DNA from: Brachybacterium kimchii
GTDB lineage: Bacteria > Actinomycetota > Actinomycetes > Actinomycetales > Dermabacteraceae
Length of the DNA: 64,000 bases
Reading direction: 5' to 3'
Assembly (NCBI RefSeq): GCF_023373525.1
Contig: NZ_CP097218.1
Coordinates: forward strand, 4,154,001-4,218,000
The notes below the pieces were generated by a model that worked only from the letters and a program-made list of their open reading frames with translations, had not been told where the DNA came from and did no database searches. This document shows, in pieces, positions 4,751 to 34,934 of this stretch. Every line of letters begins with the position of its first letter. Within the stretch, counting starts at the first letter, position 1. The translations under genes and the position numbers were made by a program.

Positions 4751-5755
4751 ATGACGAATCCTTCGGACATGCGCGGCACGGACGACGCCGCCGCTCTGCA
4801 GGTCGAGACCGACCACCGGGCGAACTCGGTGCTCGAGGGGATGCCGCCCAGCGAGGCCGAGCCGCCCGAGGGCGATGTGCGGTCGCTCGAATCCATCGGC
4901 CGCGGTGAGCTGCTGCGCCGGCGGTTCCTGCGCAACCCCGGTGCCCTGATCGGCATGGTGGTGGTGCTTCTGCTGATCCTCGGCGCGATCTTCGCCCCGA
5001 TGGCCTACCAGTACGAACCCTTCGAGCGGGACCTCCGGAATGCGCTCACGGGCCCTTCCCAATACCACTGGTTCGGTGTCGATGAGAACGGCTACGACAT
5101 CTTCGCGCGCACGATGGTGGGCCTGCGGATCTCGCTCGTCATCGGCGCGGGCACCGCGCTCCTGACCACGGTGCTCGCCCTGATCGTGGGCACCGTCGCC
5201 GGGTATGTGAGCTACAAGGGCCGCTGGGGCGCCTTCGTCGACGGCGCGCTGGTGAACCTCATCAACCTGTTCCTGGTGATCCCGTCACTGCTGCTGCTGA
5301 TGCTGTTCAGTCCGGTGCTCCAGCAGGCGAGCTGGCTCTGGCTGATCCCGCTGCTCGCGGTCTTCTCGTGGATGCTGACCGCCCGTGTGCTGCGGGCGAT
5401 GACGCAGCAGCTTGTGCGCACCGAGTACGTGGAGGCCTCGCGCTTCATGGGCGTGAACCCGGTGACGACGATCGTGCGGCACATCATCCCGAACATCGCC
5501 AGCTGGATCATCATCGACACCACGCTGGGCGTGAGCGCCGCGATCCTCGGAGAGACCGGCCTGTCGTTCATCGGCTTCGGGATCCAGTACCCCAACGTCT
5601 CCCTGGGCACGGTGCTGCAGGCCTACAACATCGCCGCCCCCTGGACCTGGATCCCGCCGGCCATGGTGCTGGCGGCCCTCGTCATCTCCGTCAATCTGAT
5701 GGGCGAAGCCCTGCGCGACGCCCTCGACCCGACCAGCGGCTCGAGCCGGGTCTGA
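4751..5755 (+). CDS. Peptide-type ABC transporter permease (DppC/OppC family)
   Basis: A 334-residue permease with a hydrophilic N-terminal extension of about 55 residues, a first membrane segment at about 65-87, and five more in the C-terminal half. The EAA-type loop EYVEASRFMGV is at about residues 224-234, matching the DppC/OppC family. It is the second permease of the importer; seven bases separate it from the first permease and 14 from the ATPase gene. The end GEALRDALDP is characteristic of this family. Confidence 0.88.
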   Translation: MTNPSDMRGTDDAAALQVETDHRANSVLEGMPPSEAEPPEGDVRSLESIGRGELLRRRFLRNPGALIGMVVVLLLILGAIFAPMAYQYEPFERDLRNALTGPSQYHWFGVDENGYDIFARTMVGLRISLVIGAGTALLTTVLALIVGTVAGYVSYKGRWGAFVDGALVNLINLFLVIPSLLLLMLFSPVLQQASWLWLIPLLAVFSWMLTARVLRAMTQQLVRTEYVEASRFMGVNPVTTIVRHIIPNIASWIIIDTTLGVSAAILGETGLSFIGFGIQYPNVSLGTVLQAYNIAAPWTWIPPAMVLAALVISVNLMGEALRDALDPTSGSSRV

Positions 5756-5769
5756 GAGGAACAGCAGGC

Positions 5770-7536
5770 ATGAGCGATCCCATCCTGACCGTCACGGACC
5801 TCAGCGTCGGCTTCGAGACCGAGGCGGGCCATGTCCAGGCCGTCCAAAATCTCAGCTACCAGGTCCGGCCCGGCGAGGCCCTGGCCATCGTCGGAGAGTC
5901 CGGTTCCGGCAAGTCCGTGAGTTCGCTGGCCGTCATGGGCCTGCTGCCCGGCTCCGCCCAGATCACCGGCGACATCGAGCTGATGGGCAAGAAGATCTTC
6001 ACGATGAACGATCGCGAGCTCTCCCAGCTCCGCGGCGACACCATCTCGATGGTCTTCCAGGACCCGCTCTCGGCGCTGACACCCGTCTTCACCGTGGGCG
6101 ACCAGATCTCCGAGGTGGTGCGCATCCACCACCCGGACGTCAGCAAGCAGAAGGCGGCCGATCGTGCGGTCGAGCTGCTGGAGGCCGTGGGCATCCCGGA
6201 GCCCCGGCGCCGGGCACAGCAGTATCCGCACGAGTTCTCGGGCGGCATGCGCCAGAGGGTCATGATCGCGATGGCGATCGCGAACGAGCCCGAGCTGATC
6301 ATCGCCGACGAGCCCACCACCGCCCTGGACGTCACCATCCAGGCCCAGGTGATGGAGCTGCTGAAGTCCGCGCAGGAGATGCTGGGTGCGGCCACCATCC
6401 TCATCACCCATGACATGGGCGTGGTCGCGGGCTTCGCCGATCGCGTGCTCGTGATGAAGGACGCGCAGATGGTCGAGACCGGGGGCGTCGAGCAGATCTT
6501 CTACGAGCCGCGCGAGCAGTACACGCGGAACCTCCTCTCGGCCGTCCCTCGGATCGATCAGGGCGCCGAGGGCGGCAGCGTCGCCGGGGCGGCGATGCGA
6601 AAGGTCGCCGAGGTGGCCGCCTCGGAGGACTCCCGTCCGCGGGAGGCCCGACCCGCCGTGCTCGAGGTCGAGGACCTCCACCGCATCTACCCGATCACCA
6701 AGGGTGCCGTGGTGCGCCGCAAGGTGGGCGAGCAGCGCGCGGTCGACGGCATCTCCTTCGACATCCGCGAGGGCGAGTGCATGGCCCTGGTGGGGGAGTC
6801 GGGTTGCGGCAAGACCACCACGCTGATGGAGATCATGCAGCTGCGCACGCCGCAGCAGGGCGAGATCCGCATCGACGGACGGCCCACGGGTTCGCTCAGC
6901 CGAAAGGAGCGGGCGAAGCTGCGCTCCGAGGTCACCCTGGTCTTCCAGGATCCGATGGCCTCGTTGGACCCCCGCATGCCCATCGGCGACATCCTCAAGG
7001 AGCCCATGCGGGTCCAGGGGTACAGCGCGAAGAAGATGAACGAACGGGTGGACTGGCTGCTCAAGACGGTCGAGCTGAAGCCCGAGCACGCCTCGCGGTA
7101 CCCCACGGAGTTCTCCGGCGGTCAGCGCCAGCGCGTGGGTGTGGCCCGTGCCCTCGCCTGCGATCCGAAGCTCATCATCCTGGACGAGCCGACGTCGGCC
7201 TTGGACGTGACCGTGCAGGCGGGCGTGCTCGCCCTGCTCGCAGACCTCAAGACCCGCCTGGGCGTGTCCTACCTCTTCGTCTCGCACGATCTCTCGGTGG
7301 TCCGGCACATCTCCGACCGCATCTCCGTGATGCGCAAGGGGCAGATCGTCGAGTCCGGGCCGACGGAGCGCGTCTTCGACGATCCGCAGCACGAGTACAC
7401 CAAGGAGCTGCTGGCGGCCGTGCCGATCCCGGATCCCCGGATCGCGCGCACGCGCGGTCGGAACGTGATCGACGAACAGGCGTTCCAGGGGCAGGGACAC
7501 GGTGGCGTCGGGACCGGGAGCCTGTCCACCTCGTGA
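5770..7536 (+). CDS. Fused double ATPase of peptide-type ABC transporter (DppD-DppF)
   Basis: A 588-residue cytoplasmic protein joining the two ATPase subunits that are separate in E. coli Dpp/Opp. The first domain has Walker A GESGSGKS (about 42-49), signature FSGGMRQRV (about 156) and Walker B IIADEPT. The second has GESGCGKT (about 341), FSGGQRQRV (about 447) and IILDEPT. Each is followed by the C-terminal segment typical of oligopeptide ATPases. I start at ATG 5770 after AGAGGA; the frame is open further upstream but that part overlaps the permease. Both sites look intact, so both half-reactions should hydrolyse ATP. Confidence 0.9.
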   Translation: MSDPILTVTDLSVGFETEAGHVQAVQNLSYQVRPGEALAIVGESGSGKSVSSLAVMGLLPGSAQITGDIELMGKKIFTMNDRELSQLRGDTISMVFQDPLSALTPVFTVGDQISEVVRIHHPDVSKQKAADRAVELLEAVGIPEPRRRAQQYPHEFSGGMRQRVMIAMAIANEPELIIADEPTTALDVTIQAQVMELLKSAQEMLGAATILITHDMGVVAGFADRVLVMKDAQMVETGGVEQIFYEPREQYTRNLLSAVPRIDQGAEGGSVAGAAMRKVAEVAASEDSRPREARPAVLEVEDLHRIYPITKGAVVRRKVGEQRAVDGISFDIREGECMALVGESGCGKTTTLMEIMQLRTPQQGEIRIDGRPTGSLSRKERAKLRSEVTLVFQDPMASLDPRMPIGDILKEPMRVQGYSAKKMNERVDWLLKTVELKPEHASRYPTEFSGGQRQRVGVARALACDPKLIILDEPTSALDVTVQAGVLALLADLKTRLGVSYLFVSHDLSVVRHISDRISVMRKGQIVESGPTERVFDDPQHEYTKELLAAVPIPDPRIARTRGRNVIDEQAFQGQGHGGVGTGSLSTS

Positions 7537-7604
7537 GGTCCGTCCGCGCCTGGGCGGTGCCCCGCGTGTAGAACGTTGCGAATGGATAACACCCTGTTCA
7601 GATG

Positions 7605-7616
7605 CACGACGTCGTG
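7605..7616. promoter_or_regulatory. 12-bp perfect palindrome upstream of solute-binding lipoprotein
   Basis: CACGACGTCGTG is perfectly self-complementary and lies in the 211-base gap before the lipoprotein gene. It is a possible operator for separate control of the binding protein, but it is short and no regulator gene is adjacent. Confidence 0.3.
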
Positions 7617-7747
7617 ACCTACCGTTCGTATGCTGGTCACACCTTGTGCACCACGTCACGTCGGCCATCGGAGGTCGGAGCGGACGCCGAGGGGGATTTG
7701 ACGAGCCGCCCCGAAAGGATCGGGGTGCGCGCATGAAGGAGAGACAT

Positions 7748-9466
7748 ATGCGATTCACGCGGCGTTCCATGCTCGGCGCAACTGCGCTGTCCGTGACCGG
7801 TGTGGCCCTCGTGGGCTGCAGCCAGGACAACGGCCAGGGCGGCGGGTCCGGTGGGAGCGGTGATGGCGAGGCCATCGCGGCCGACTCCAACGACATGAAC
7901 CCGAAGGATCGCGGCGAGCTGGGCGAGGGCGGCGCGCTGCGTCTGTCCAACAACGCGTTCCCCGCGAACTGGAACTCCTTCCACGTCGACGGAGCGGAGG
8001 CGAACACCTCGGAGATGATGGCGCTCGTGTACCCCTCCCTCATCAAGGCCGATGCCAAGGGCGAGGTCTCCGCCAATCCGCAGTACACCAAGCGCATCGA
8101 GCTCACTTCTGAGGACCCGCAGGTCGTCGAGGTGGAGCTGAACCCCGACATGAAGTGGTCGGACGGTACCCCGATCGACTTCAAGTCGATCGAGAACGTG
8201 ATCACGATCCAGAGCGGCAAGGACGAGGATTACCAGGTCGCGTCGACCGAGGGGTACACGCTCATCGACAAGGTCGAGCAGGGAGACAGCGAGCTGATCG
8301 CCAAGATCACCTTCAAGGAGAAGTACGCGGACTGGATGGGTCTGATCTCCGTCATGCCGGACTCCCTCGCGGAATCCGCGAAGGCGTACAACGAGGGATG
8401 GCTCAAGGAGCCGAAGGTCACCGCCGGTCCCTTCAAGGTGGGCAAGATCGATGCGGCGAACAAGACGGTCCTCCTGGAGCCGGATGACAACTGGTGGGGA
8501 GACAAGCCGCTCCTCGACCAGGTCCTCTTCACGACCATCGAAGACCCCTCCGCCTCGGCGACCTCCTTCCAGAATGGTCAGCTGGACGCGCTCAACACCA
8601 CGGTCCCCGCCCAGTACTCCGTCGTGAAGCCGATGATCGGCAACGGTGCGACACTGCGGAAGTCCGCCGGGCCGGACTGGACCCACCTGACCCTGAACGG
8701 ATCGAAGGGCCGCCCGCTGTCGGACCAGAAGGTGCGTCAGGCCTTCTTCCGGGCCATCGATCGCGAGGAGGTCTTCCTCTCGGTGAACTCCACGATGCCG
8801 TACCCGAAGAACCCCGAGCAGCTCAACAACCGCCTCCTGATGACCAACCAGGAGGGGTACAAGGACAACTCGGGGGATTACGGCAAGTACGATCCCGACG
8901 CGGCCAAGAAGCTGCTCGAGGAAGCGGGCTACAAGCTCGAGGGCGAGAAGGCCATGAAGGACGGCAAGCAGCTCGAGCTGACGTACGTCTACAACGACGG
9001 CTCGAAGACTAATGAGGCCGTGGTGCCCGTGGTCCAGGAGCAGCTCAAGGCCGTGGGTATCAACATGAAGGTGCAGAAGGTCCCGCCGACAGACCTGTTC
9101 TCGAAGTACATCGGCGCCCAGGAGTTCGACATCACGCTGTTCGGCTGGGTCGGCAACCCGTTCCTCTCCAGCGGCGACTCGATCTGGAAGACCAAGGGCG
9201 GTCAGAACTTCGGCAAGATCGGTAACGACGCGACCGACAAGGTCATCGATCAGGCCGCCGTCGAGACCGACGACGCCAAGCGCCTCGATCTGATCAACCA
9301 GGCCGATGCGGGGCTGTGGGAGCTGGCCGGCACGCTCCCGCTGTGGCAGTCCTACGACTTCTACGTCCAGAACGACGACCTGGCGAACTTCGGGGCCAAG
9401 GGGTTCGCTGACATCGACTGGACCCTCGTCGGCTACGTGAAGGATTCCGACAAGCTCAAGGGCTGA
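7748..9466 (+). CDS. Solute-binding lipoprotein of peptide-type ABC transporter
   Basis: A 572-residue family-5 extracellular solute-binding protein (DppA/OppA type). The N-terminus MRFTRRSMLG gives a twin-arginine-like signal, and the lipobox ends LVGC with the lipidated Cys at residue 24, so it should be anchored on the outer face of the membrane. The ATG at 7748 follows AAGGAGA with proper spacing; an ATG 15 bases upstream is less likely because it falls before that site. It is the last gene of the importer cluster and lies 211 bases from the ATPase, which would allow it to be made in excess. Confidence 0.88.
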   Translation: MRFTRRSMLGATALSVTGVALVGCSQDNGQGGGSGGSGDGEAIAADSNDMNPKDRGELGEGGALRLSNNAFPANWNSFHVDGAEANTSEMMALVYPSLIKADAKGEVSANPQYTKRIELTSEDPQVVEVELNPDMKWSDGTPIDFKSIENVITIQSGKDEDYQVASTEGYTLIDKVEQGDSELIAKITFKEKYADWMGLISVMPDSLAESAKAYNEGWLKEPKVTAGPFKVGKIDAANKTVLLEPDDNWWGDKPLLDQVLFTTIEDPSASATSFQNGQLDALNTTVPAQYSVVKPMIGNGATLRKSAGPDWTHLTLNGSKGRPLSDQKVRQAFFRAIDREEVFLSVNSTMPYPKNPEQLNNRLLMTNQEGYKDNSGDYGKYDPDAAKKLLEEAGYKLEGEKAMKDGKQLELTYVYNDGSKTNEAVVPVVQEQLKAVGINMKVQKVPPTDLFSKYIGAQEFDITLFGWVGNPFLSSGDSIWKTKGGQNFGKIGNDATDKVIDQAAVETDDAKRLDLINQADAGLWELAGTLPLWQSYDFYVQNDDLANFGAKGFADIDWTLVGYVKDSDKLKG

Positions 9467-9480
9467 TCGCGCTCCTCGCC

Positions 9481-9514
9481 CAGGGCCGTCTCGCAACCGT
9501 GCGGGGCGGCCCTG
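9481..9514 (+). terminator. Rho-independent-type hairpin after binding-protein gene
   Basis: CAGGGCCG (9481-9488) pairs with CGGCCCTG (9507-9514), 14 bases after the stop codon. There is no U tract. Confidence 0.5.
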
Positions 9515-9717
9515 CGTCGTGTGCGGCGCTGGGGCATGCGAAGGCCTCCCCAACAGGGGAGAGCGGAGGACATGCGCGCGCTGATCGCCACGGGCCGCGC
9601 GCTCGATCACCTGGATGACCGCGGGCCGCGCCCTCGCAGTACTCATGTTCCTCGCCCTCAGGGTGCTCGGGCGCCACGGGTGAGCCACGACGGGCCCGTT
9701 CCGTCGGCATCCCCTCG

Positions 9718-9723
9718 TAGGCT
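9718..9723 (+). promoter_or_regulatory. -10 hexamer TAGGCT, leaderless start
   Basis: TAGGCT ends six bases before the ATG at 9730 (spacer GGCGGC). The -35 is not recognisable. Confidence 0.55.
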
Positions 9724-9729
9724 GGCGGC

Positions 9730-10623
9730 ATGCGCATCCTGCAGCTGACGGACACCCATCTCTACGGGGACCCCGCCTCCCGCCACTACGACCGCATCGA
9801 CACCGCCGCCGCCCTGCGCGCGGTTCTCGCGCGCGTGCGCGGGATGGAGGGTGTGGACGTCGTGGTCCACACGGGCGACGCCTCGGACGACGGCAGCGTC
9901 GCGAGCTACCGCCTGCTGCACGAGCTCGTCGACCCCTTCGCGGCATCGCTCGGTGCGCCGCTCGTGGTGACGATGGGCAACCACGACGTCCCCGCCGCGT
10001 ACGCCGAGGTCGCGGGCCCCGGAGACCACGGGGGCCCCTGGCAGGACCGGGTCCGCGCGCTGCCCCGTGGCGGGCGCGTGATCGTCCTGGACTCGAGCGT
10101 CCCGGGCGCCGGCTACGGGCACCTCGACCCCGAGCAGCTGGAGTGGCTGCGGGAGGTCCTCGCCGCACCGGCCGCCAGTGGTGCGCCCGCCGGGGGAGAG
10201 GCGGACGGGCCGACGGTCCTCGCGATCCACCACCCGCCGCTCGTCGGCGCGACGCCGCTGCTGCGGGGCCTGGACCTCGACGGCCTCGACGCGCTCGCCG
10301 ACGTCCTCGCGGGCAGCGACGTGCGCGCGATCCTGTCCGGCCACTACCACCACCCGATGACGGGGAGCATCGCCGGCATCCCCGTGCTCGTCGGCCCCGG
10401 TATCACCAACGTCGTCGACCCTCTCGCCGCCGGCGGTGTCGAGCGGGCCGGGGCGCGCTCGGGCGCGCAGCTCGTGGAGATCGACGCCCCCGGGGCCCCG
10501 GGCGTCCGCGCCACGAGCGCCGAGTGGGCCAGCGGCGGCGACACCCTCGAGGATCCCGAGCGGCCCGTCTACGAGTTCGGGCCCGACGTCGTCGCGCAGA
10601 TCCTCCGCGCCGCCGGGCGCTGA
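9730..10623 (+). CDS. CpdA-like metallophosphoesterase
   Basis: A 297-residue calcineurin-like phosphoesterase. The metal-binding motifs are all present in order: LTDTH (residues 6-10), HTGDASDDG (about 47-55), MGNHD, and SGHYHH at about 202-207. This layout is that of class III cyclic nucleotide phosphodiesterases, so 3',5'-cAMP is the likely but unproved substrate. The protein has no signal peptide and should be cytoplasmic. It stands alone between the ABC transporter and groESL, with its own leaderless-type promoter. Confidence 0.75.
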   Translation: MRILQLTDTHLYGDPASRHYDRIDTAAALRAVLARVRGMEGVDVVVHTGDASDDGSVASYRLLHELVDPFAASLGAPLVVTMGNHDVPAAYAEVAGPGDHGGPWQDRVRALPRGGRVIVLDSSVPGAGYGHLDPEQLEWLREVLAAPAASGAPAGGEADGPTVLAIHHPPLVGATPLLRGLDLDGLDALADVLAGSDVRAILSGHYHHPMTGSIAGIPVLVGPGITNVVDPLAAGGVERAGARSGAQLVEIDAPGAPGVRATSAEWASGGDTLEDPERPVYEFGPDVVAQILRAAGR

Positions 10624-14699: not shown

Positions 14700-15493
14700 G
14701 CGCGACCCCCGGACCTGCCGCCGAGCCCCGTCCCCGTCGCACGCGCCGCGGGCTGCTCGTCGTCGGCCCGACCCTGGGCGCCCGATACCTGCCCGGGGCG
14801 CTCATCGGTCTGCCGCTGCTCGCACTGCTGCTGGGCGCGTTCCCCGCCGCCGGCATCCAGGCGTGGAGGTTCGGGCGACTGCGGGCGGGGGAGGACGACC
14901 TGCTGGTGCGTCTGCTCGCGCCCGGCATCGTGCAGTACCTCGTGGGTGTGCTCGCGGTGTGGGCGCTCGTCGCCCTGTGGGCGCTCGTGCCGCTGATCAT
15001 CGTGCACCGCACCGTCCTCCTCGATGCCGAGAGCGGGACGCTGCGCCGGGTCCGCGGGCTGCGCACGGCAGGGGTGCGGGCGAGCGCGGACGTGGTGCGC
15101 ATCGAGGCCGACGCGGTCCGCGGCGGGATCGGCGTGATCGCCTTCGCCGACGGCGAGGAGTGGGTGGTCCCCGAGTCCGGCTGGGACGCGGCCTCCTTCG
15201 ACGGCTTCCGCGCACTGCAGGAGAGCGCCGGTCTGCCCGTGCAGCCACCCCGCGCGGTGCTCGTCGCCGCGCACCGCCGAGCCCACCGAATCGCGCGCGA
15301 CCGGGAATCCGCCGCCAGGATCGGCATGCCCTGGGAACAGGCGTACGAGGACGATCCCGCGGCCTTCCTCGCCGAGTTCGACCGCCGCCGGCGGGTCCTC
15401 GGCGGCAAGGAGCCAGCCCGGCCCGGCGACCTCACGCGCGCCTCCGCGACCGGGGCCGAGCGCGGTCCGGGGAGCGATCGCCGGGAGACGTGA
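14696..15493 (+). CDS. Two-TM membrane protein of unknown function
   Basis: A 265-residue protein starting at GTG 14696, overlapping the pseudouridine synthase stop. A basic N-terminus is followed by membrane segments at about 36-58 and 78-101, then a soluble region (about 105-180) containing RTVLLDAESGTLRR and FADGEEWVVPESGW, reminiscent of a small PH-like or DUF-type beta domain. The C-terminal 80 residues are charged and probably disordered. It is the last gene of the operon begun at 13030 and is convergent with the TetR gene. Confidence 0.55.
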   Translation: MSATPGPAAEPRPRRTRRGLLVVGPTLGARYLPGALIGLPLLALLLGAFPAAGIQAWRFGRLRAGEDDLLVRLLAPGIVQYLVGVLAVWALVALWALVPLIIVHRTVLLDAESGTLRRVRGLRTAGVRASADVVRIEADAVRGGIGVIAFADGEEWVVPESGWDAASFDGFRALQESAGLPVQPPRAVLVAAHRRAHRIARDRESAARIGMPWEQAYEDDPAAFLAEFDRRRRVLGGKEPARPGDLTRASATGAERGPGSDRRET

Positions 15494-15508
15494 TCCGGTG
15501 GCGCGCGC

Positions 15509-16117
15509 TCAGGGCCGCAGCGGGCTCAGCACCGCGCCCATGGCCTCGCGCACGACGGCCGCCTCCTCAGGGGACTCCATGGCCCCGTCGGCGCGGAGAT
15601 AGCGCGTGCCGAGCACGGCCATCAGCCCGCCGACGGCGAACTCGATCCTGCGGCGCTGGACGGGATCGAGGTCGACGGGCTCGGCGCCGATCACGCTGCG
15701 GGTCACGCGCTCGCACAGCCAGTCGAAGACGACCGAGCGCGCGCGGGGGAGCGCCTCGCGCGCATCGAGCGCGGGCGACGCCTCGATCTCGCCCTGCCTC
15801 AGGCGCTCGAGGATGTGCTCGAGCGGGTCCTCGTCCGGGGCCTCCTGCAGGAATCTCCGCTCGCCCGCCTCGAGGCGATCGCGCACCACGGACGCGTAGA
15901 CGTCGTCGATGTCTGCGAAGTGCTGGTAGAAGGTGGGCCGCGAGATCCCCGCGGCCTTGCACAGCTGGGAGATCGAGATCGTCTCGAGGCCCTGCTCGCG
16001 CGAGAGCGCCTCGAAGGCGTCCTTCACCGCGGTCCGTGAGCGCAGTACGCGCGCATCCTCGACGGCGCGGCCCGCCTCGCCTCGGCCCGTGGGTGCGGGC
16101 CCCTCGCTGCTGTCCAT
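15509..16117 (-). CDS. TetR-family repressor of the adjacent membrane pair
   Basis: A 202-residue TetR regulator. After a 22-residue disordered leader, the DNA-binding domain spans about residues 24-70 with the recognition helix region LCKAAGISRPTFYQHF. The C-terminal ligand domain ends near ADGAMESPEEAAVV. It is divergent from two tandem membrane-protein genes, and a near-perfect 31-bp inverted repeat sits in the 76-base gap, so it very likely represses them and perhaps itself. Its own -10 (TAGCCT) is six bases before the ATG. Confidence 0.85.
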   Translation of the reverse strand: MDSSEGPAPTGRGEAGRAVEDARVLRSRTAVKDAFEALSREQGLETISISQLCKAAGISRPTFYQHFADIDDVYASVVRDRLEAGERRFLQEAPDEDPLEHILERLRQGEIEASPALDAREALPRARSVVFDWLCERVTRSVIGAEPVDLDPVQRRRIEFAVGGLMAVLGTRYLRADGAMESPEEAAVVREAMGAVLSPLRP

Positions 16118-16123
16118 CGCCCC

Positions 16124-16129
16124 AGGCTA
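16124..16129 (-). promoter_or_regulatory. -10 hexamer TAGCCT, leaderless start
   Basis: TAGCCT is followed by six bases and the ATG of the TetR gene at 16117. The operator at 16151-16181 lies where the -35 would be. Confidence 0.55.
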
Positions 16130-16150
16130 CCAGCGCGTGAGGACATTCAC

Positions 16151-16181
16151 TTACAGTTGTCAAGCAGGGTGACGACTGTAA
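16151..16181. promoter_or_regulatory. TetR operator, 11-9-11 inverted repeat
   Basis: TTACAGTTGTC (16151-16161), nine bases, GACGACTGTAA (16171-16181). The arms match at ten of eleven positions. It overlaps a plus-strand promoter (TTGTCA 16157-16162, 16-base spacer, TAAAAG 16179-16184) that serves the membrane pair. Confidence 0.75.
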
Positions 16182-16184
16182 AAG
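16179..16184 (+). promoter_or_regulatory. -10 TAAAAG of the membrane pair
   Basis: TTGTCA-N16-TAAAAG, nine bases before the ATG at 16194. No ribosome site is present, so the transcript is probably leaderless or nearly so. Confidence 0.5.
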
Positions 16185-16193
16185 ATCGCAGTC

Positions 16194-17321
16194 ATGTCCA
16201 TGCCATCACTCGCGGGCGCCGCTCGACGCGCCCCGCTGCCCATGATCCTCATGGCGATGCTCTTCCCGGTCTTCATGGCCTTCGCCTACCCCGGCTCGTA
16301 CCTCTCGGCGATGCTCGAGCCCGCTCCCGACCACATGCAGCTCGCGGTCGTCGAGAGCACGAAGGACGCTCCTCAGATCGCCCAGCAGCTGCAGGCCGAG
16401 GGAGGGGACGCCGTCGACGTCACCACCGTGGCCGACACAGCCGCGGCGAAGACCGCCGTCACCGACCTCGAGGCCCGCGCCGCCTACGACCCCTCGAACG
16501 GCAGCCTCTACGTCGCCACCGCCGGCGGCGCCCAGGCCACGAGCGCGGCGCAGAGCATCTTCGACGAGGTCGCCCAGAAGACCGACCAGACCCTCCACGT
16601 CAAGGATCTGCGCGGGACCACCGCCGCCGACTCCACCGGCACCGGCTTCATGTACATGCTCACCGCGTGCCTCGTGGCCGGCTACGTCACCGCCACCATG
16701 CTCACGAGCGTCGCCCGCGGCGTCCGCCTGCCCGTGAAGCTCGCCGTGCAGGTGCTCATGTCCGTGGTCGCCGGTGTGCTCACCGCGGGAGTGTGCTTCG
16801 GCTTCTACGGCGTCTACGACCACCACCTCGTCGGCGCCGCGCTCATCGGCGGCGCCCTGTTCCTCACCGCCTCCGTCGTCCAGCTGGGATTCGCGGGTCT
16901 GCTCGGTCAGGCGTCGACGCTCGTCGGGATCAGCCTCTTCGTGATCCTCGGGGTGCCCGCCTCGGGGGTCGCCGCCACACCCGACATGCTCCCCGGGTTC
17001 TTCCGCGTCCTGCATCGCCTGCTGCCCTCGGGCGCGGGCGGCGAGCTGCTTCGGCGGGTGCTCTACTTCGACGCCCACGGCATCGGCACCTGGGTGCTGC
17101 TCCTGGTCACCTGGCTGCTCGTGGGCGCGGGCCTGGTCTGGCTGGGCACCCTGCGCTCGCCGTCGGCCGATCCGGCCACGAGCGTCGTCACCGAGGAGCG
17201 CGAGCACCTGCGCGCGCACCCGGAGGGCGGCATGTTCACCGCGTACGACGAGGCGCAGGACCGGACCGAGCACGCGCCCCAGGCGCCCCGCCATCGCGCC
17301 CCCGAGGAGGGACTGGCATGA
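16194..17321 (+). CDS. ABC-2/YhgE-like membrane protein, copy 1
   Basis: A 375-residue protein with one N-terminal membrane segment (about 15-37), an extracytoplasmic domain of about 115 residues, then five or six closely spaced membrane segments (about 152-325) and a hydrophilic tail. This is the layout of ABC-2-type permeases and of YhgE/Pip-like proteins. It contains ARAAYDPSNGSLYVATAGG, which corresponds to LRGAYDPEKGVVYYAGANG in the next gene, so the two are paralogues. No ATPase gene is adjacent. It is probably an export or envelope protein; the substrate is unknown. Another ATG lies six bases downstream. Confidence 0.7.
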   Translation: MSMPSLAGAARRAPLPMILMAMLFPVFMAFAYPGSYLSAMLEPAPDHMQLAVVESTKDAPQIAQQLQAEGGDAVDVTTVADTAAAKTAVTDLEARAAYDPSNGSLYVATAGGAQATSAAQSIFDEVAQKTDQTLHVKDLRGTTAADSTGTGFMYMLTACLVAGYVTATMLTSVARGVRLPVKLAVQVLMSVVAGVLTAGVCFGFYGVYDHHLVGAALIGGALFLTASVVQLGFAGLLGQASTLVGISLFVILGVPASGVAATPDMLPGFFRVLHRLLPSGAGGELLRRVLYFDAHGIGTWVLLLVTWLLVGAGLVWLGTLRSPSADPATSVVTEEREHLRAHPEGGMFTAYDEAQDRTEHAPQAPRHRAPEEGLA

Positions 17322-18520
17322 ACGAGACAGGCACCCACGAGGCCCCCGAGAACGGGGAGCCCAGGAACGAGGCACCGATGGGCGACCGTGCCCAGGACAG
17401 CACGCCCCCGCGCGGCACCCTGCTGGAGCGGCTCTCCTCCGCGCCGGCCGCCTCGGCCATCGGCGCGATGAGCGACCCGACCAAGAAGCCCGGGCCGCCG
17501 GTCGATCGGAGGCTCACGACACGGCGCATGCTCACGGTCGGCATGCTGCTCCCGCTGTTCATGCTCTTCGTGATGCCGATGGTCATGACCGGCATGACCA
17601 CCCACAGCTCGCCGCGGCACATGGAGGTCGCGGTGATCGGCTCCGCCTCCGCGGCCGACGACCTCGTCACGAACCTCCAGGACTCCTCGGGGAACTCCTT
17701 CGACGTCACGCGCGTGGCCTCGGTCGACGCGGCGAAGACGCAGATCGCCGAGCACGATCTGCGCGGGGCCTACGACCCGGAGAAGGGCGTCGTCTACTAC
17801 GCCGGCGCGAACGGACGACAGGTCACCGGGGCCGTCACGAGCTTCTTCGACAAGGTCGCCCAGCAGCAGGACCAGAAGCCGACGGAGCGCGACGTCGTCC
17901 CGCTCGAGGACCACGACCCGTCGGGCACGGCAGCCCTGTACCTCTCCCTCGGCACCATCCTGGGGGGCTTCATGACGGGCATCATCCTGAGCCTCATGCC
18001 CACGGGGTCGAAGGTCCGCCTGGCACTGGGGGTCGTGATGCCCGCGGTGTTCGCCACCGGGATGATCGTCTACGGCTGGGCGGTCTTCGGGATCTTCAGC
18101 GGCGTCGCGATCATGCCCTGGGTGATGCTCTTCCTGCTGAGCCTCACGGCCTGCGCCGTGACCAGCGGGCTCATGCTGAGCATGGGGCCCGCGGCGATGC
18201 CGATCGCGATCCTGCTGATCCCCCTGCTCGGCATGTCGAGCTCCGGGGTCGCCGCGCCCCTCGACATGATCGGCGGCTTCTACCGGGGCATGCACACATG
18301 GATCTTCTCCGCACAGGGGATCTCCGGCGTGCGCGATGCCCTCTACTTCGACGACGCCTCCCTCACGGTGCCGGTGCTCGTGCTGCTCGCCTGGATGGTG
18401 GGCGGCGTCCTGCTCGCGGCACTGGGAACCCTCCGGCAGAAGCGGCGGCACCTCTTCGCCATGCTCACCGAGCAGGAGGAGACGAGCACCGCGCTCGCCG
18501 TCGGCGCCGCGGCGGCCTGA
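17318..18520 (+). CDS. ABC-2/YhgE-like membrane protein, copy 2
   Basis: A 400-residue paralogue of the preceding gene, overlapping it by ATGA. It differs by a 65-residue hydrophilic N-terminal extension before the first membrane segment (about 70-92). It keeps the extracytoplasmic domain, with a YDPEKGVVYYAG motif at about residues 152-163, and five or six C-terminal segments. Both copies have a proline-poor loop ending in an ALYFDD or VLYFDA motif before the last segment. The overlap suggests equimolar synthesis and possibly a heterodimer. The partner ATPase, if any, must be elsewhere. Confidence 0.7.
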   Translation: MNETGTHEAPENGEPRNEAPMGDRAQDSTPPRGTLLERLSSAPAASAIGAMSDPTKKPGPPVDRRLTTRRMLTVGMLLPLFMLFVMPMVMTGMTTHSSPRHMEVAVIGSASAADDLVTNLQDSSGNSFDVTRVASVDAAKTQIAEHDLRGAYDPEKGVVYYAGANGRQVTGAVTSFFDKVAQQQDQKPTERDVVPLEDHDPSGTAALYLSLGTILGGFMTGIILSLMPTGSKVRLALGVVMPAVFATGMIVYGWAVFGIFSGVAIMPWVMLFLLSLTACAVTSGLMLSMGPAAMPIAILLIPLLGMSSSGVAAPLDMIGGFYRGMHTWIFSAQGISGVRDALYFDDASLTVPVLVLLAWMVGGVLLAALGTLRQKRRHLFAMLTEQEETSTALAVGAAAA

Positions 18521-18544
18521 GCGGACAGCGCGGCCCAGCCTCAT

Positions 18545-18591
18545 CGGCAGGGCGCAGGGCGTGGCCCGTCCCACGTCCCAGCGCCCTGCCG
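18545..18591 (+). terminator. Hairpin after the membrane pair
   Basis: CGGCAGGGCGC (18545-18555) pairs with GCGCCCTGCCG (18581-18591); 25-base loop, 24 bases after the stop and upstream of guaB. Confidence 0.5.
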
Positions 18592-18610
18592 GTGCCCCCG
18601 GACCCCCGAG

Positions 18611-20122
<1,512 letters not shown>

Positions 20123-21413: not shown

Positions 21414-21422
21414 GTCATGGTG

Positions 21423-22535
21423 ATGAGCGAGATCGAGATCGGCCGGAACAAGCGGGGACGCCGCGGATACAGCTTCGACGACGTCGCGGTGGTGCCCTCC
21501 CGGCGCACCCGCGACCCCGAGGACGTCTCCACCGCCTGGCAGGTGGACGCCTACCACTTCGACATCCCGATTTTCTCGGCCCCCATGGACTCGGTCGTCT
21601 CCCCGGAGGTCGCGATCGCCCTGGGCCGCGCCGGTGGTCTGGGCGTGCTCGACCTCGAGGGCCTGTGGACCCGCTACGAGGATCCGACTCCCCAGCTGGA
21701 CCGCATCACCTCGGCGAGCGAGGAGGAGGAGGTCGTCGGCGTCCTCCGCGAGGCCTACGAGGAGCCGATCAAGCCTGAGCTGATCACCGAGCGCATCCGT
21801 CAGCTGCGCGAGGCCGGGGTCACTGCCGCGGGCTCCCTCTCGCCGCAGCGCACGCAGGAGCACTGGCGCACCGTCGTCGACGCGGGCGTGGACCTCTTCT
21901 TCATCCGCGGCACGACCGTCTCGGCGGAGCACGTCTCCTCGGGGCGCGAGCCGCTGAACCTCAAGCGCTTCATCTACGAGCTGGACGTCCCCGTCATCGT
22001 GGGCGGCTGCGCGACCTACACCGCGGCCCTGCACCTCATGCGCACGGGCGCCGCGGGCGTGCTCGTCGGCTTCGGCGGCGGCGCCTCCCACACCACCCGC
22101 GAGACCCTCGGCATCCAGGTGCCTCTCGCGACCGCCGTGGCCGATGTGGCCGCCGCGCGCCGCGACTACATGGACGAGTCCGGCGGCCGCTACGTGCACG
22201 TCATCGCCGACGGCGGCCTGGGCCGCAGCGGCGACCTCGTCAAGGCGATCGCCTGCGGGGCCGACGGCCTGATGGTCGGCGCGGCCCTCGCGCGCGCCGA
22301 GGAGGCCCCCGGCCGTGGCTACCACTGGGGGAGCGAGGCGCACCACCCGACGCTGCCGCGCGGTCACCGCGTGGAGGTCAGCACCGTCGCGCCGCTGGAC
22401 CAGATCCTCTTCGGCCCGGGCCTGAGCGCCGAGGGCACCACGAACCTCGTGGGCGCCCTGCGTCACGCCATGGCGACCACCGGCTACACGGAGCTCAAGG
22501 AGTTCCAGCGCATCGAGGTCGTCACCACCCGCTGA
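21423..22535 (+). CDS. guaB3: GuaB3-family IMP dehydrogenase-related protein
   Basis: A 370-residue barrel protein of the actinobacterial GuaB3 group. It begins SEIEIGRNKRGRRGYSFDD and lacks the CBS pair of GuaB. The region of the catalytic Cys reads IVGGCATYTAALHLMRTG instead of the IMPDH GSICTT loop, so IMP dehydrogenase activity is unlikely. Homologues have been discussed as GMP reductase-like or regulatory proteins. The typical family start is ATG 21423; two other in-frame starts lie within six bases upstream. It sits between an exonuclease and heme oxygenase. Confidence 0.88.
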   Translation: MSEIEIGRNKRGRRGYSFDDVAVVPSRRTRDPEDVSTAWQVDAYHFDIPIFSAPMDSVVSPEVAIALGRAGGLGVLDLEGLWTRYEDPTPQLDRITSASEEEEVVGVLREAYEEPIKPELITERIRQLREAGVTAAGSLSPQRTQEHWRTVVDAGVDLFFIRGTTVSAEHVSSGREPLNLKRFIYELDVPVIVGGCATYTAALHLMRTGAAGVLVGFGGGASHTTRETLGIQVPLATAVADVAAARRDYMDESGGRYVHVIADGGLGRSGDLVKAIACGADGLMVGAALARAEEAPGRGYHWGSEAHHPTLPRGHRVEVSTVAPLDQILFGPGLSAEGTTNLVGALRHAMATTGYTELKEFQRIEVVTTR

Positions 22536-34015: not shown

Positions 34016-34113
34016 GAATTCTCCTGAGTCCAGAAGGGGCGATCGGTGACGGCGGGTGCGCAGAACCGCGCACGCGGAGTGGCCGGAGCGCTCCATCGAG
34101 CTTCGACCGGTCA

Positions 34114-34142
34114 ACACTACTGCGATTGCAGTCACTGCACAA
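34114..34142 (-). promoter_or_regulatory. Promoter of DHA2 pump gene
   Basis: On the minus strand, TTGTGC (34137-34142), 17-base spacer, TAGTGT (34114-34119). One palindrome fills the spacer and the other abuts the -35. Confidence 0.6.
34127..34139. promoter_or_regulatory. TetR operator, copy 1
   Basis: TGCAGTCACTGCA, a perfect 13-bp palindrome inside the repeated ATTGCAGTCACTGCA. It lies between the -35 and -10 of the pump gene. Confidence 0.75.
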
Positions 34143-34143
34143 T

Positions 34144-34156
34144 TGCAGTCACTGCA
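34144..34156. promoter_or_regulatory. TetR operator, copy 2
   Basis: A second exact TGCAGTCACTGCA, 17 bp after the first. It covers the region where the -35 of the regulator gene would lie. Confidence 0.75.
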
Positions 34157-34175
34157 CTTTTCTCGTGAGGTGGGC

Positions 34176-34181
34176 TACGGT
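34176..34181 (+). promoter_or_regulatory. -10 hexamer TACGGT of TetR gene, leaderless start
   Basis: TACGGT is followed by CGCTCC and the GTG at 34188. Confidence 0.55.
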
Positions 34182-34187
34182 CGCTCC

Positions 34188-34934
34188 GTGAGCAGCGCGC
34201 CAGACACCGAGCCGGGCACCAGCACCGGCTCCATCCCCTCAGGAGACCCGCGGCGAGGCCCGGAGCTCGCCCCCGAATGCGGGCTGCGCGAGCGCAAGAA
34301 GCGCCAGGCGCGCGCCGACATGCACCGCGCCGCCCTCGAGCTCGTCGCCGAGCACGGTCTGGACAGCGTCACCGTCGAGATGATCGCCGAGCGCGCGGGG
34401 ATCTCGCCCCGCACCTTCTTCAACCACTGGGCGTCGAAGGAGTCCGCGGTCCTGGGTCTGCCGGTCCTCGGCCCCGACGAGTCGTGGCGCGCCCTGCTGA
34501 CGGTGAGCCCCGAGGCGACGCCGGAGCAGGCGCTGCGCGAGGTGCTGCGGCAGATCATCCGCACGGCCGATGCGGACCTCGGGCTGCGCGAGCTGAAGAA
34601 GCGCGTGCTGCACCGCGAACCGAGCCTCCACGCGGTGAGCGCGGGGCGCACGGCGCACATGCAGTCGGCGCTGATCGCCGCCTTCGAGCGCCGCGTGCGC
34701 GTCGGCCCGCTCACGCAGGAGCAGGCGGAGGAGCTCATCGGCGAGGACGTGGAGAGCTTCGCGGGCGGCGCCGCGGAGGACCCGCAGCTCTACGAGCGCG
34801 CGGTCATCGCGGTGCAGCTCGGATTCGCCGTCTCCCGCAGCGCGTTCTCCCTGTCGATGGCACGGGGCACGACGGTCCTCGAGGAGTTCGACCACGTCTC
34901 GCACGTGGTGGGGACCCGCCGCATCGCGAGCTGA
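34188..34934 (+). CDS. TetR-family regulator of the DHA2 pump
   Basis: A 248-residue TetR regulator. A 35-residue disordered start is followed by the DNA-binding domain with MIAERAGISPRTFFNHW at about residues 62-78. I start at GTG 34188 from the -10 spacing; a longer frame upstream would run through the operators. The gene is divergent from the pump, and the two exact 13-bp palindromes lie between them, so it should repress both genes until a ligand binds its C-terminal domain. The ligand is not predictable. Confidence 0.85.
   Translation: MSSAPDTEPGTSTGSIPSGDPRRGPELAPECGLRERKKRQARADMHRAALELVAEHGLDSVTVEMIAERAGISPRTFFNHWASKESAVLGLPVLGPDESWRALLTVSPEATPEQALREVLRQIIRTADADLGLRELKKRVLHREPSLHAVSAGRTAHMQSALIAAFERRVRVGPLTQEQAEELIGEDVESFAGGAAEDPQLYERAVIAVQLGFAVSRSAFSLSMARGTTVLEEFDHVSHVVGTRRIAS

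Follow-up and report, generated by a model that had tools for sequence, protein, structure and literature searches.

What might two paralogous membrane proteins that resemble the permeases of ATP-binding cassette type 2 (ABC-2) exporters do for a bacterium when a TetR gene faces them and no ATPase gene lies at their side? The question is raised by a 64,000-nucleotide stretch of the Brachybacterium kimchii chromosome (the window; positions 4154001-4218000 of contig 1 in a 4.35-Mb genome), in which two tandem plus-strand genes, for proteins that we call P0001 and P0002, face a divergent TetR gene. Our tentative answer, which may well need revision in some of its parts, is that the two proteins form a TetR-derepressed, ATP-independent heterodimer that exports or otherwise handles a hydrophobe, using an ABC-2 fold that lost its ATPase. 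The elements on which the argument turns are the following.

15509..16117, minus strand: gene for the TetR-family regulator, divergent from the pair (202 amino acids, aa; TetR_N at 31.5 bits against a cut-off of 24)
16151..16181, no strand assigned: putative operator, an 11-9-11 inverted repeat TTACAGTTGTC-N9-GACGACTGTAA (31 bp, in the 76-bp gap between the TetR gene and the pair)
16194..17321, plus strand: gene for P0001, the first membrane protein (375 aa; predicted transmembrane helix TM1, alpha/beta outside domain, TM2-6, ABC-2 fold)
17318..17321, plus strand: ATGA overlap of the P0001 and P0002 genes (4 nt), seen in the sequence
17318..18520, plus strand: gene for P0002, the second membrane protein (400 aa; N-terminal tail of about 60 aa, then a P0001-like architecture)

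All three genes lie where the original prediction had placed them, and the TetR_N score confirms the family of the regulator. The ATGA overlap bears out its description of the membrane genes as tandem and coupled, since such an overlap likely entails translational coupling of the two, and their paralogy is evident from 34% identity over 339 columns (E = 8e-51). The proposed layout of one plus five membrane helices appears in the predicted models of both proteins (P0001: predicted local distance difference test score, pLDDT, 74, and predicted template modelling score, pTM, 0.68; P0002: 88 and 0.81), each of which has TM1, an alpha/beta domain of roughly 100 residues outside the membrane, and TM2-TM6 with a short helix pair preceding TM6. 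The extra N-terminus of the second protein is also recovered, as a low-confidence tail of about 60 residues ahead of TM1 that is modelled in P0002 only and is presumably cytoplasmic. An AYDP motif had been put forward as a shared feature of the outside domain; it occurs in only 6 of 104 rows, all of them proteins from three species, and is therefore no family motif. Better conserved are D200, G203, G290, R339, Y343 and F344 (P0002 numbers), which are kept in P0001, in P0002 and in both halves of the fused proteins L045 and L086-L088 (see below), so that neither window protein looks degenerate. D192 is replaced by N in two C-terminal halves among these fusions, and D192, D200 and R339 are jointly kept in 50 of 58 family rows.

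Both models support the assignment of an ABC-2 (type V, ABCG-like) fold, a call that concerns the membrane domain only. The top VIA structural match is ABCG25 for P0001 (Z 16.6, root-mean-square deviation 2.7 over 177 residues) and ABCG1 for P0002 (Z 14.2, 2.8 over 183 residues), with many ABCG rows tied with them among the matches listed. The best Foldseek match of both proteins is insect ABCH-9C (E = 1.4e-4 for P0001 and 4.9e-5 for P0002), and the whole-length TM-scores of the five best matches per model are low (0.21-0.38). At the level of sequence profiles, P0001 exceeds the cut-off of PF12698 (ABC2_membrane_3; 40.3 bits against 31.6), P0002 has no match in Pfam, PF12698 included, and 41 of the 58 family members match PF12698 at E<=0.001. 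TIGR03062, which describes the C-terminal part of YhgE/Pip proteins, is matched by 26 of the 58 at the same threshold; it gives no match with P0001, 25.9 bits with P0002 and 44.1 with the fused protein of L045, against a cut-off of 102.2 that leaves P0002 far below. Neither TIGR03061 (the YhgE N-terminal model) nor the heptad models match P0001 or P0002 at E<=1, while a long YhgE/Pip protein, L053, matches both; DUF3533 (PF12051) likewise misses the two window proteins at E<=1 and is weakly matched by 4 of the 58 members (E<=0.001). In profile-profile alignments with hhalign the nearest neighbours of the family are YhgE/Pip proteins of the long type (probability 98.8 over 179 columns, in the C-terminal membrane half); ordinary permeases are more distant (92.3 over 70 columns, for a permease profile of three rows). 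PDB sequences compared with the family profile gave two weak matches only, both designed proteins, and PADLOC returned no match for P0001 or P0002. By these sequence comparisons, P0001 and P0002 fall into a widespread branch of short, YhgE/Pip-like ABC2_membrane_3 proteins, within a broad and poorly characterised group. It was originally suggested that the unit may be uncharacterised, and this stands insofar as we found no studied family with this regulator; it is, on the other hand, not isolated. Among the open-access PMC matches listed, the text excerpts returned contain no TetR-controlled pair of this kind.

How is the pair controlled? The arms of the operator agree at 10 of 11 positions, and it is the only match at <=3 mismatches both in the window (0 of 100 shuffles) and in the whole genome, which bears out the near-perfect 11-9-11 repeat of the original prediction. 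Of two orthologous loci, L043 preserves the arms unchanged and L044 has them in degenerate form. The further suggestion that the operator covers the promoter fits its position, as it ends 12 bp before the ATG of the first membrane gene; no sigma-70 consensus was found in 15400-18700, so that part of the suggestion depends on a promoter whose location we infer. A TetR_N domain together with a palindromic site in the divergent intergenic region is what a TetR system should present, and sequence and comparison thus support a dedicated local operator. According to an excerpt of an earlier study, a TetR gene that stands under 200 bp from a divergently transcribed gene most likely regulates that gene (PMC3511530). 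Given the single operator and the 76-bp gap, we regard repression of the membrane pair by this TetR as very probable. Near-perfect palindromes also stand between TetR and homologue in L094 and L098 (e.g. TAAGATACGATACGTATCGTATCTAA in L098) and are likely operators of sister systems.

A TetR neighbour is common among the relatives that were read. We surveyed 91 homologous units of Actinomycetes (50 from the same family or order and 41 from the class), a non-random set that leaves out the window itself and takes in its two close orthologues. Its class part comes from 40 hand-picked stretches in which places with a double match were chosen deliberately, so that the share of fused genes in it is no frequency. 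For TetR and ATPase we used home-made profiles (five and four seeds, respectively), the count excludes L047 and L051 (partial matches) and L053, and L133 and L134, which fitted neither the short nor the long YhgE group, were used in neither. Of the 91 units, 51 have a TetR domain no more than 700 bp away (45 head to head, 4 co-directional upstream and 2 co-directional downstream), against a background in random windows of the same loci of 2.8% (224/8014) or 3.8% of 5000.

The relatives also bear on whether the two proteins act together. Both halves are found within one open reading frame (ORF) at nine loci, in seven genera of six families, and seven of the nine have a head-to-head TetR gene. 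In a 104-row tree P0001 and P0002 form sister clades (support 99/97), so their duplication is, on this sample, private to the lineage of the window pair. The halves of seven fusions make up two sister clades inside a separate 100/100 clade, and the L177 and L178 fusions represent a third, independent duplication; we thus count at least three origins of a duplicated pair, with fused halves in two of the lineages concerned. A Streptomyces plasmid carries two tandem genes annotated 'ABC transporter permease', 38 bp apart, with TetR head to head across a gap of about 350 bp. In a FastTree phylogeny this pair groups with the fused clade: the first gene is placed with the N-halves (0.928) and the second, weakly, with the C-halves (0.545). 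A single Rhodococcus gene that has a divergent TetR branches there as the sister of the window pair (0.928). With the plasmid pair and the fused loci, the layout of a TetR gene plus two membrane genes recurs among homologues, as the neighbourhood check attached to the original prediction had sought. One further candidate fusion, L111, was rejected as an ordinary protein that matches the profile in two pieces. Repeated duplication and fusion would be expected if the ancestral protein acted as a homodimer, and it is for this reason, from model prediction and comparison, that we consider the working unit likely to be a dimer, and here a heterodimer.

Whether this dimer needs an ATPase is the harder question. 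In ABC-2 permeases the loop between TM2 and TM3 forms a coupling helix that grips the ATPase. The corresponding segments of the window proteins are these.

16713..16727, plus strand: predicted TM2-TM3 cytoplasmic turn of P0001, residues 174-178 (5), between helices 151-173 and 179-205, local pLDDT about 70
17996..18007, plus strand: predicted TM2-TM3 cytoplasmic turn of P0002, residues 227-230 (4), between helices 205-226 and 231-257, local pLDDT above 90

Turns of five and four residues leave no coupling helix in either model. The loop is also short by hydropathy in the 58 family members (median 12, range 2-22), compared with 25-33 in four ABC-2 permeases that served as controls; these come from the same genome, and three have a neighbouring ABC ATPase match. 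The sole ABC ATPase match in the window (home-made profile, ORFs of at least 80 aa) lies some 8 kb off, in an ORF with two ATPase domains at 5368-7536 that is peptide-importer-like by eye, in keeping with the original claim that no ATPase lies beside the pair. Nor are homologues consistently linked to one, an outcome that would have spoken against that claim: 6 of the 91 units have an ABC ATPase no further than 1.5 kb away, against 7.0% of 5000 random windows. The picture of a two-protein, TetR-linked unit without an adjacent ATPase is therefore supported and, because no ATPase gene is adjacent and the coupling helix is missing from the models, we think on balance that the pair would work without any ABC ATPase.

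Several observations pull the other way, and they lend some substance to a conventional alternative in which the pair is the heterodimeric permease of an ordinary ABC-2 exporter and borrows an orphan ATPase encoded elsewhere. Paired permeases are common in ABC-2 systems, both proteins are predicted to have the ABC-2 fold, and P0001 scores above the PF12698 cut-off. In four genomes of one genus (L090, L095-L097) an ATPase gene lies directly downstream of the homologue, with a TetR gene ahead of both and all three on one strand; in L090, however, that gene overlaps an ABC-2 permease gene of its own, and an ORF occupies the same place in L096. The other two ATPase-linked units are L190, where the ATPase is on the opposite strand, and L208, where MarR, the homologue, a 451-aa protein with no Pfam match and an ABC ATPase follow one another on one strand (5103-8852), possibly as an operon that links the homologue to another exporter. 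Ten long YhgE/Pip proteins have TM2-TM3 loops of 14-28 residues, which overlap the few (four) controls, so loop length alone is no proof; the test separates the family of the window pair from ordinary permeases, but not YhgE/Pip from ordinary permeases. The TetR link is uneven as well: it falls from 35 of 50 units in the nearer set to 16 of 41 in the class set, and 40 of the 91 have no TetR within 700 bp, among them L208 and L212, with MarR beside the homologue, and L049, with a weak PaaX-like gene nearby. Some of the 91 units are near copies from one genus and this, with the hand-picking, means that the fractions describe the units read and not the class as a whole. Finally, no acidic residue is conserved inside any TM (the largest share of D/E in a column is 0.22 in 58 sequences), so that no SbmA-like proton path is visible and a simple proton pump is disfavoured. 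Even so, we judge the borrowed ATPase unlikely: ATPases are not enriched beside homologues, and the segment that should dock one is absent from the two models and short throughout the family.

Two further alternatives would make the pair something other than an active transporter. It might be an envelope scaffold or receptor, akin to YhgE/Pip or EsaA, that aids secretion or a cell-wall process and is induced by envelope damage. This would suit the kinship of the C-terminal membrane half with YhgE/Pip seen by hhalign and TIGR03062, and a long Pip protein is needed for phage infection of Enterococcus faecalis, according to an excerpt of PMC4999554. P0001 and P0002 nevertheless match none of the YhgE N-terminal or heptad models, the TIGR03062 score of P0002 is well short of its cut-off, and a single genomic operator for a divergent TetR looks like a response to a ligand, all of which makes a scaffold improbable in our view. 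Alternatively, the pair could be a passive lipid scramblase or a modulator of membrane fluidity, as has been proposed for the yeast protein Sng1, which bears DUF3533. The weak DUF3533 matches in a few family members and the want of a conserved acidic TM residue would both agree with this, and Sng1 has been tied to multidrug resistance, with one cited study reporting effects on membrane fluidity and flippase activity (PMC8882276, in excerpt). Since neither window protein itself matches DUF3533, we hold this explanation to be distinctly improbable.

The ATP-independent heterodimer that we favour may be set against several known systems. YhgE/Pip proteins (TIGR03061/TIGR03062; Bacillus subtilis YhgE, Lactococcus Pip, E. 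faecalis PIPEF, and EsaA) share with the window pair TM1, a region outside the membrane and a profile-related membrane domain; their outside region, however, runs to several hundred residues with heptad repeats, compared with about 100 here, and the window proteins fall below the curated cut-off and are of a kind duplicated or fused into pairs. B. subtilis YhgE has a TetR-type neighbour too, YhgD. A YhgE/Pip gene was mutated in E. faecalis isolates not sensitive to ginkgolic acid, and the effect demonstrated in the excerpt of that report was for Fur (PMC8754111). The PF12698 permeases and the transmembrane domains of ABCG, ABCH and ABCA proteins have the fold and TM order of the membrane domain in common with the pair which, unlike them, has no fused or adjacent ATPase and, in the models, no TM2-TM3 coupling helix. 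A looser parallel is SbmA/BacA of the SLiPT group, an ATPase-free dimer of ABC-type transmembrane domains without coupling helices, as described in excerpts of PMC13316013 and PMC9408558. Like SbmA, the window pair has no adjacent ATPase and no modelled coupling helix; SbmA/BacA is, however, a type IV ABC relative, a proton-driven peptide importer with a glutamate ladder, whereas the pair has an ABC-2 fold, no conserved membrane acids and presumably an export function. SbmA is not among the fold matches shown for either model, and those listings do not exclude it. In genetic layout the pair resembles TetR-controlled exporters of a single gene, such as QacR/QacA or MmpL-type systems, which have a divergent TetR, an operator in the intergenic gap and a membrane target without an ATPase; the window system differs from these in its membrane fold and its two subunits.

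As we picture it, TetR dimers on the single operator would shut off the pair, and probably their own gene too, until a hydrophobic ligand released them. P0001 and P0002 would then come together in a heterodimer of ABC-2 (type V, ABCG-like) fold, to which each subunit would add its small alpha/beta domain outside the membrane. Without using an ABC ATPase, the heterodimer would move the ligand, or a related hydrophobe or amphipath (a drug, fatty acid, steroid or lipid), outward or between leaflets. The driving force might be the gradient of the substrate itself, protons handled by the two aspartates conserved outside the membrane, or a hidden ATPase. Whether the pair exports or flips a hydrophobe at all is, in our estimation, evenly balanced. 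A hydrophobic substrate is hinted at by two thin analogies with distant relatives, which is a further weakness of our proposal: a Rhodococcus plasmid carries a single homologue with a divergent TetR in a lipid-type gene setting, and a YhgE/Pip protein, with a locus tag next to that of an MMPL transporter, is listed among the cholesterol-induced genes of Saccharopolyspora in an excerpt of PMC9782250. Genes for coenzyme A esters near the Streptomyces plasmid pair are a thin hint of the same sort.

The unit is patchily distributed. The order of genes around it is groEL-like (by eye), a 272-aa gene, RNA pseudouridine synthase, a 265-aa gene, TetR, the pair and inosine monophosphate (IMP) dehydrogenase; the 272-aa and 265-aa genes gave no match in a Pfam search, and the last gene follows the pair directly.

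18623-20122: IMP dehydrogenase gene, directly after the membrane pair

A second IMP-dehydrogenase-like ORF (by eye) lies close by at 21417-22535, and a further TetR-type helix-turn-helix match to the home-made profile is found in the window at 34056-34934. The orthologous three-gene units at L043 and L044 have the same neighbours, and their TetR proteins are 96% and 80% identical, respectively, to that of the window. A match at the level of P0001 (E<=1e-6) occurs in 9 of 47 genomes of the family, and the close pair in three, the genome of the window included; a genome scan with one protein as query matched two close species only, B. halotolerans and B. subflavum. Of the 37 genomes of the genus, 34 yielded an IMP dehydrogenase gene, and at 30 of these 34 loci we read the gene together with some 1.5 kb of upstream sequence. 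The close pair precedes IMP dehydrogenase in 3 of the 30. In L217, L232 and L242 the 265-aa gene is directly upstream of IMP dehydrogenase, with no space for an intervening gene; in L241 only the end of the 265-aa gene is inside, about 1.4 kb upstream; and in the other 23 (one of them, L234, shortened) none of the queried genes was found. This patchy presence indicates that the unit was gained or lost at the junction. Against plasmids, megablast recovered only a piece of IMP dehydrogenase, and a protein search matched nine plasmid records, including, besides those described above, a Streptomyces coelicoflavus plasmid with another single homologue and divergent TetR. Elsewhere in the genome of the window there is a third, distant single-copy paralogue (L050; C1:3905764-3907050, locus 8561-10054) with a divergent TetR gene at 7926-8540, as well as a long ORF with repeats and, by eye, a YhgE/Pip-like C-terminus (L131/L003; C1 near 3427818).

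It is possible, if rather doubtful, that the pair represents something broader: a widespread group of ATP-free secondary transporters in the Actinomycetes, derived from the type V fold by loss of the ATPase and its docking helix, which are obligate dimers, have been repeatedly duplicated and in some cases fused, in many cases have a TetR of their own, and form a counterpart to SbmA. The family itself is already known, if poorly characterised; what would be new is an obligate pair that uses the ABC-2 fold for transport without ATP. If this is true, ATP-free use of an ABC fold would have arisen not only in the SbmA lineage but in the ABC-2 (ABCG-like) one too, and the family would offer a simple genetic model for a primary pump turning secondary. 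The recurrent pairs and fusions open the dimer question to direct tests, and each local TetR provides a route to the substrate through its inducer.

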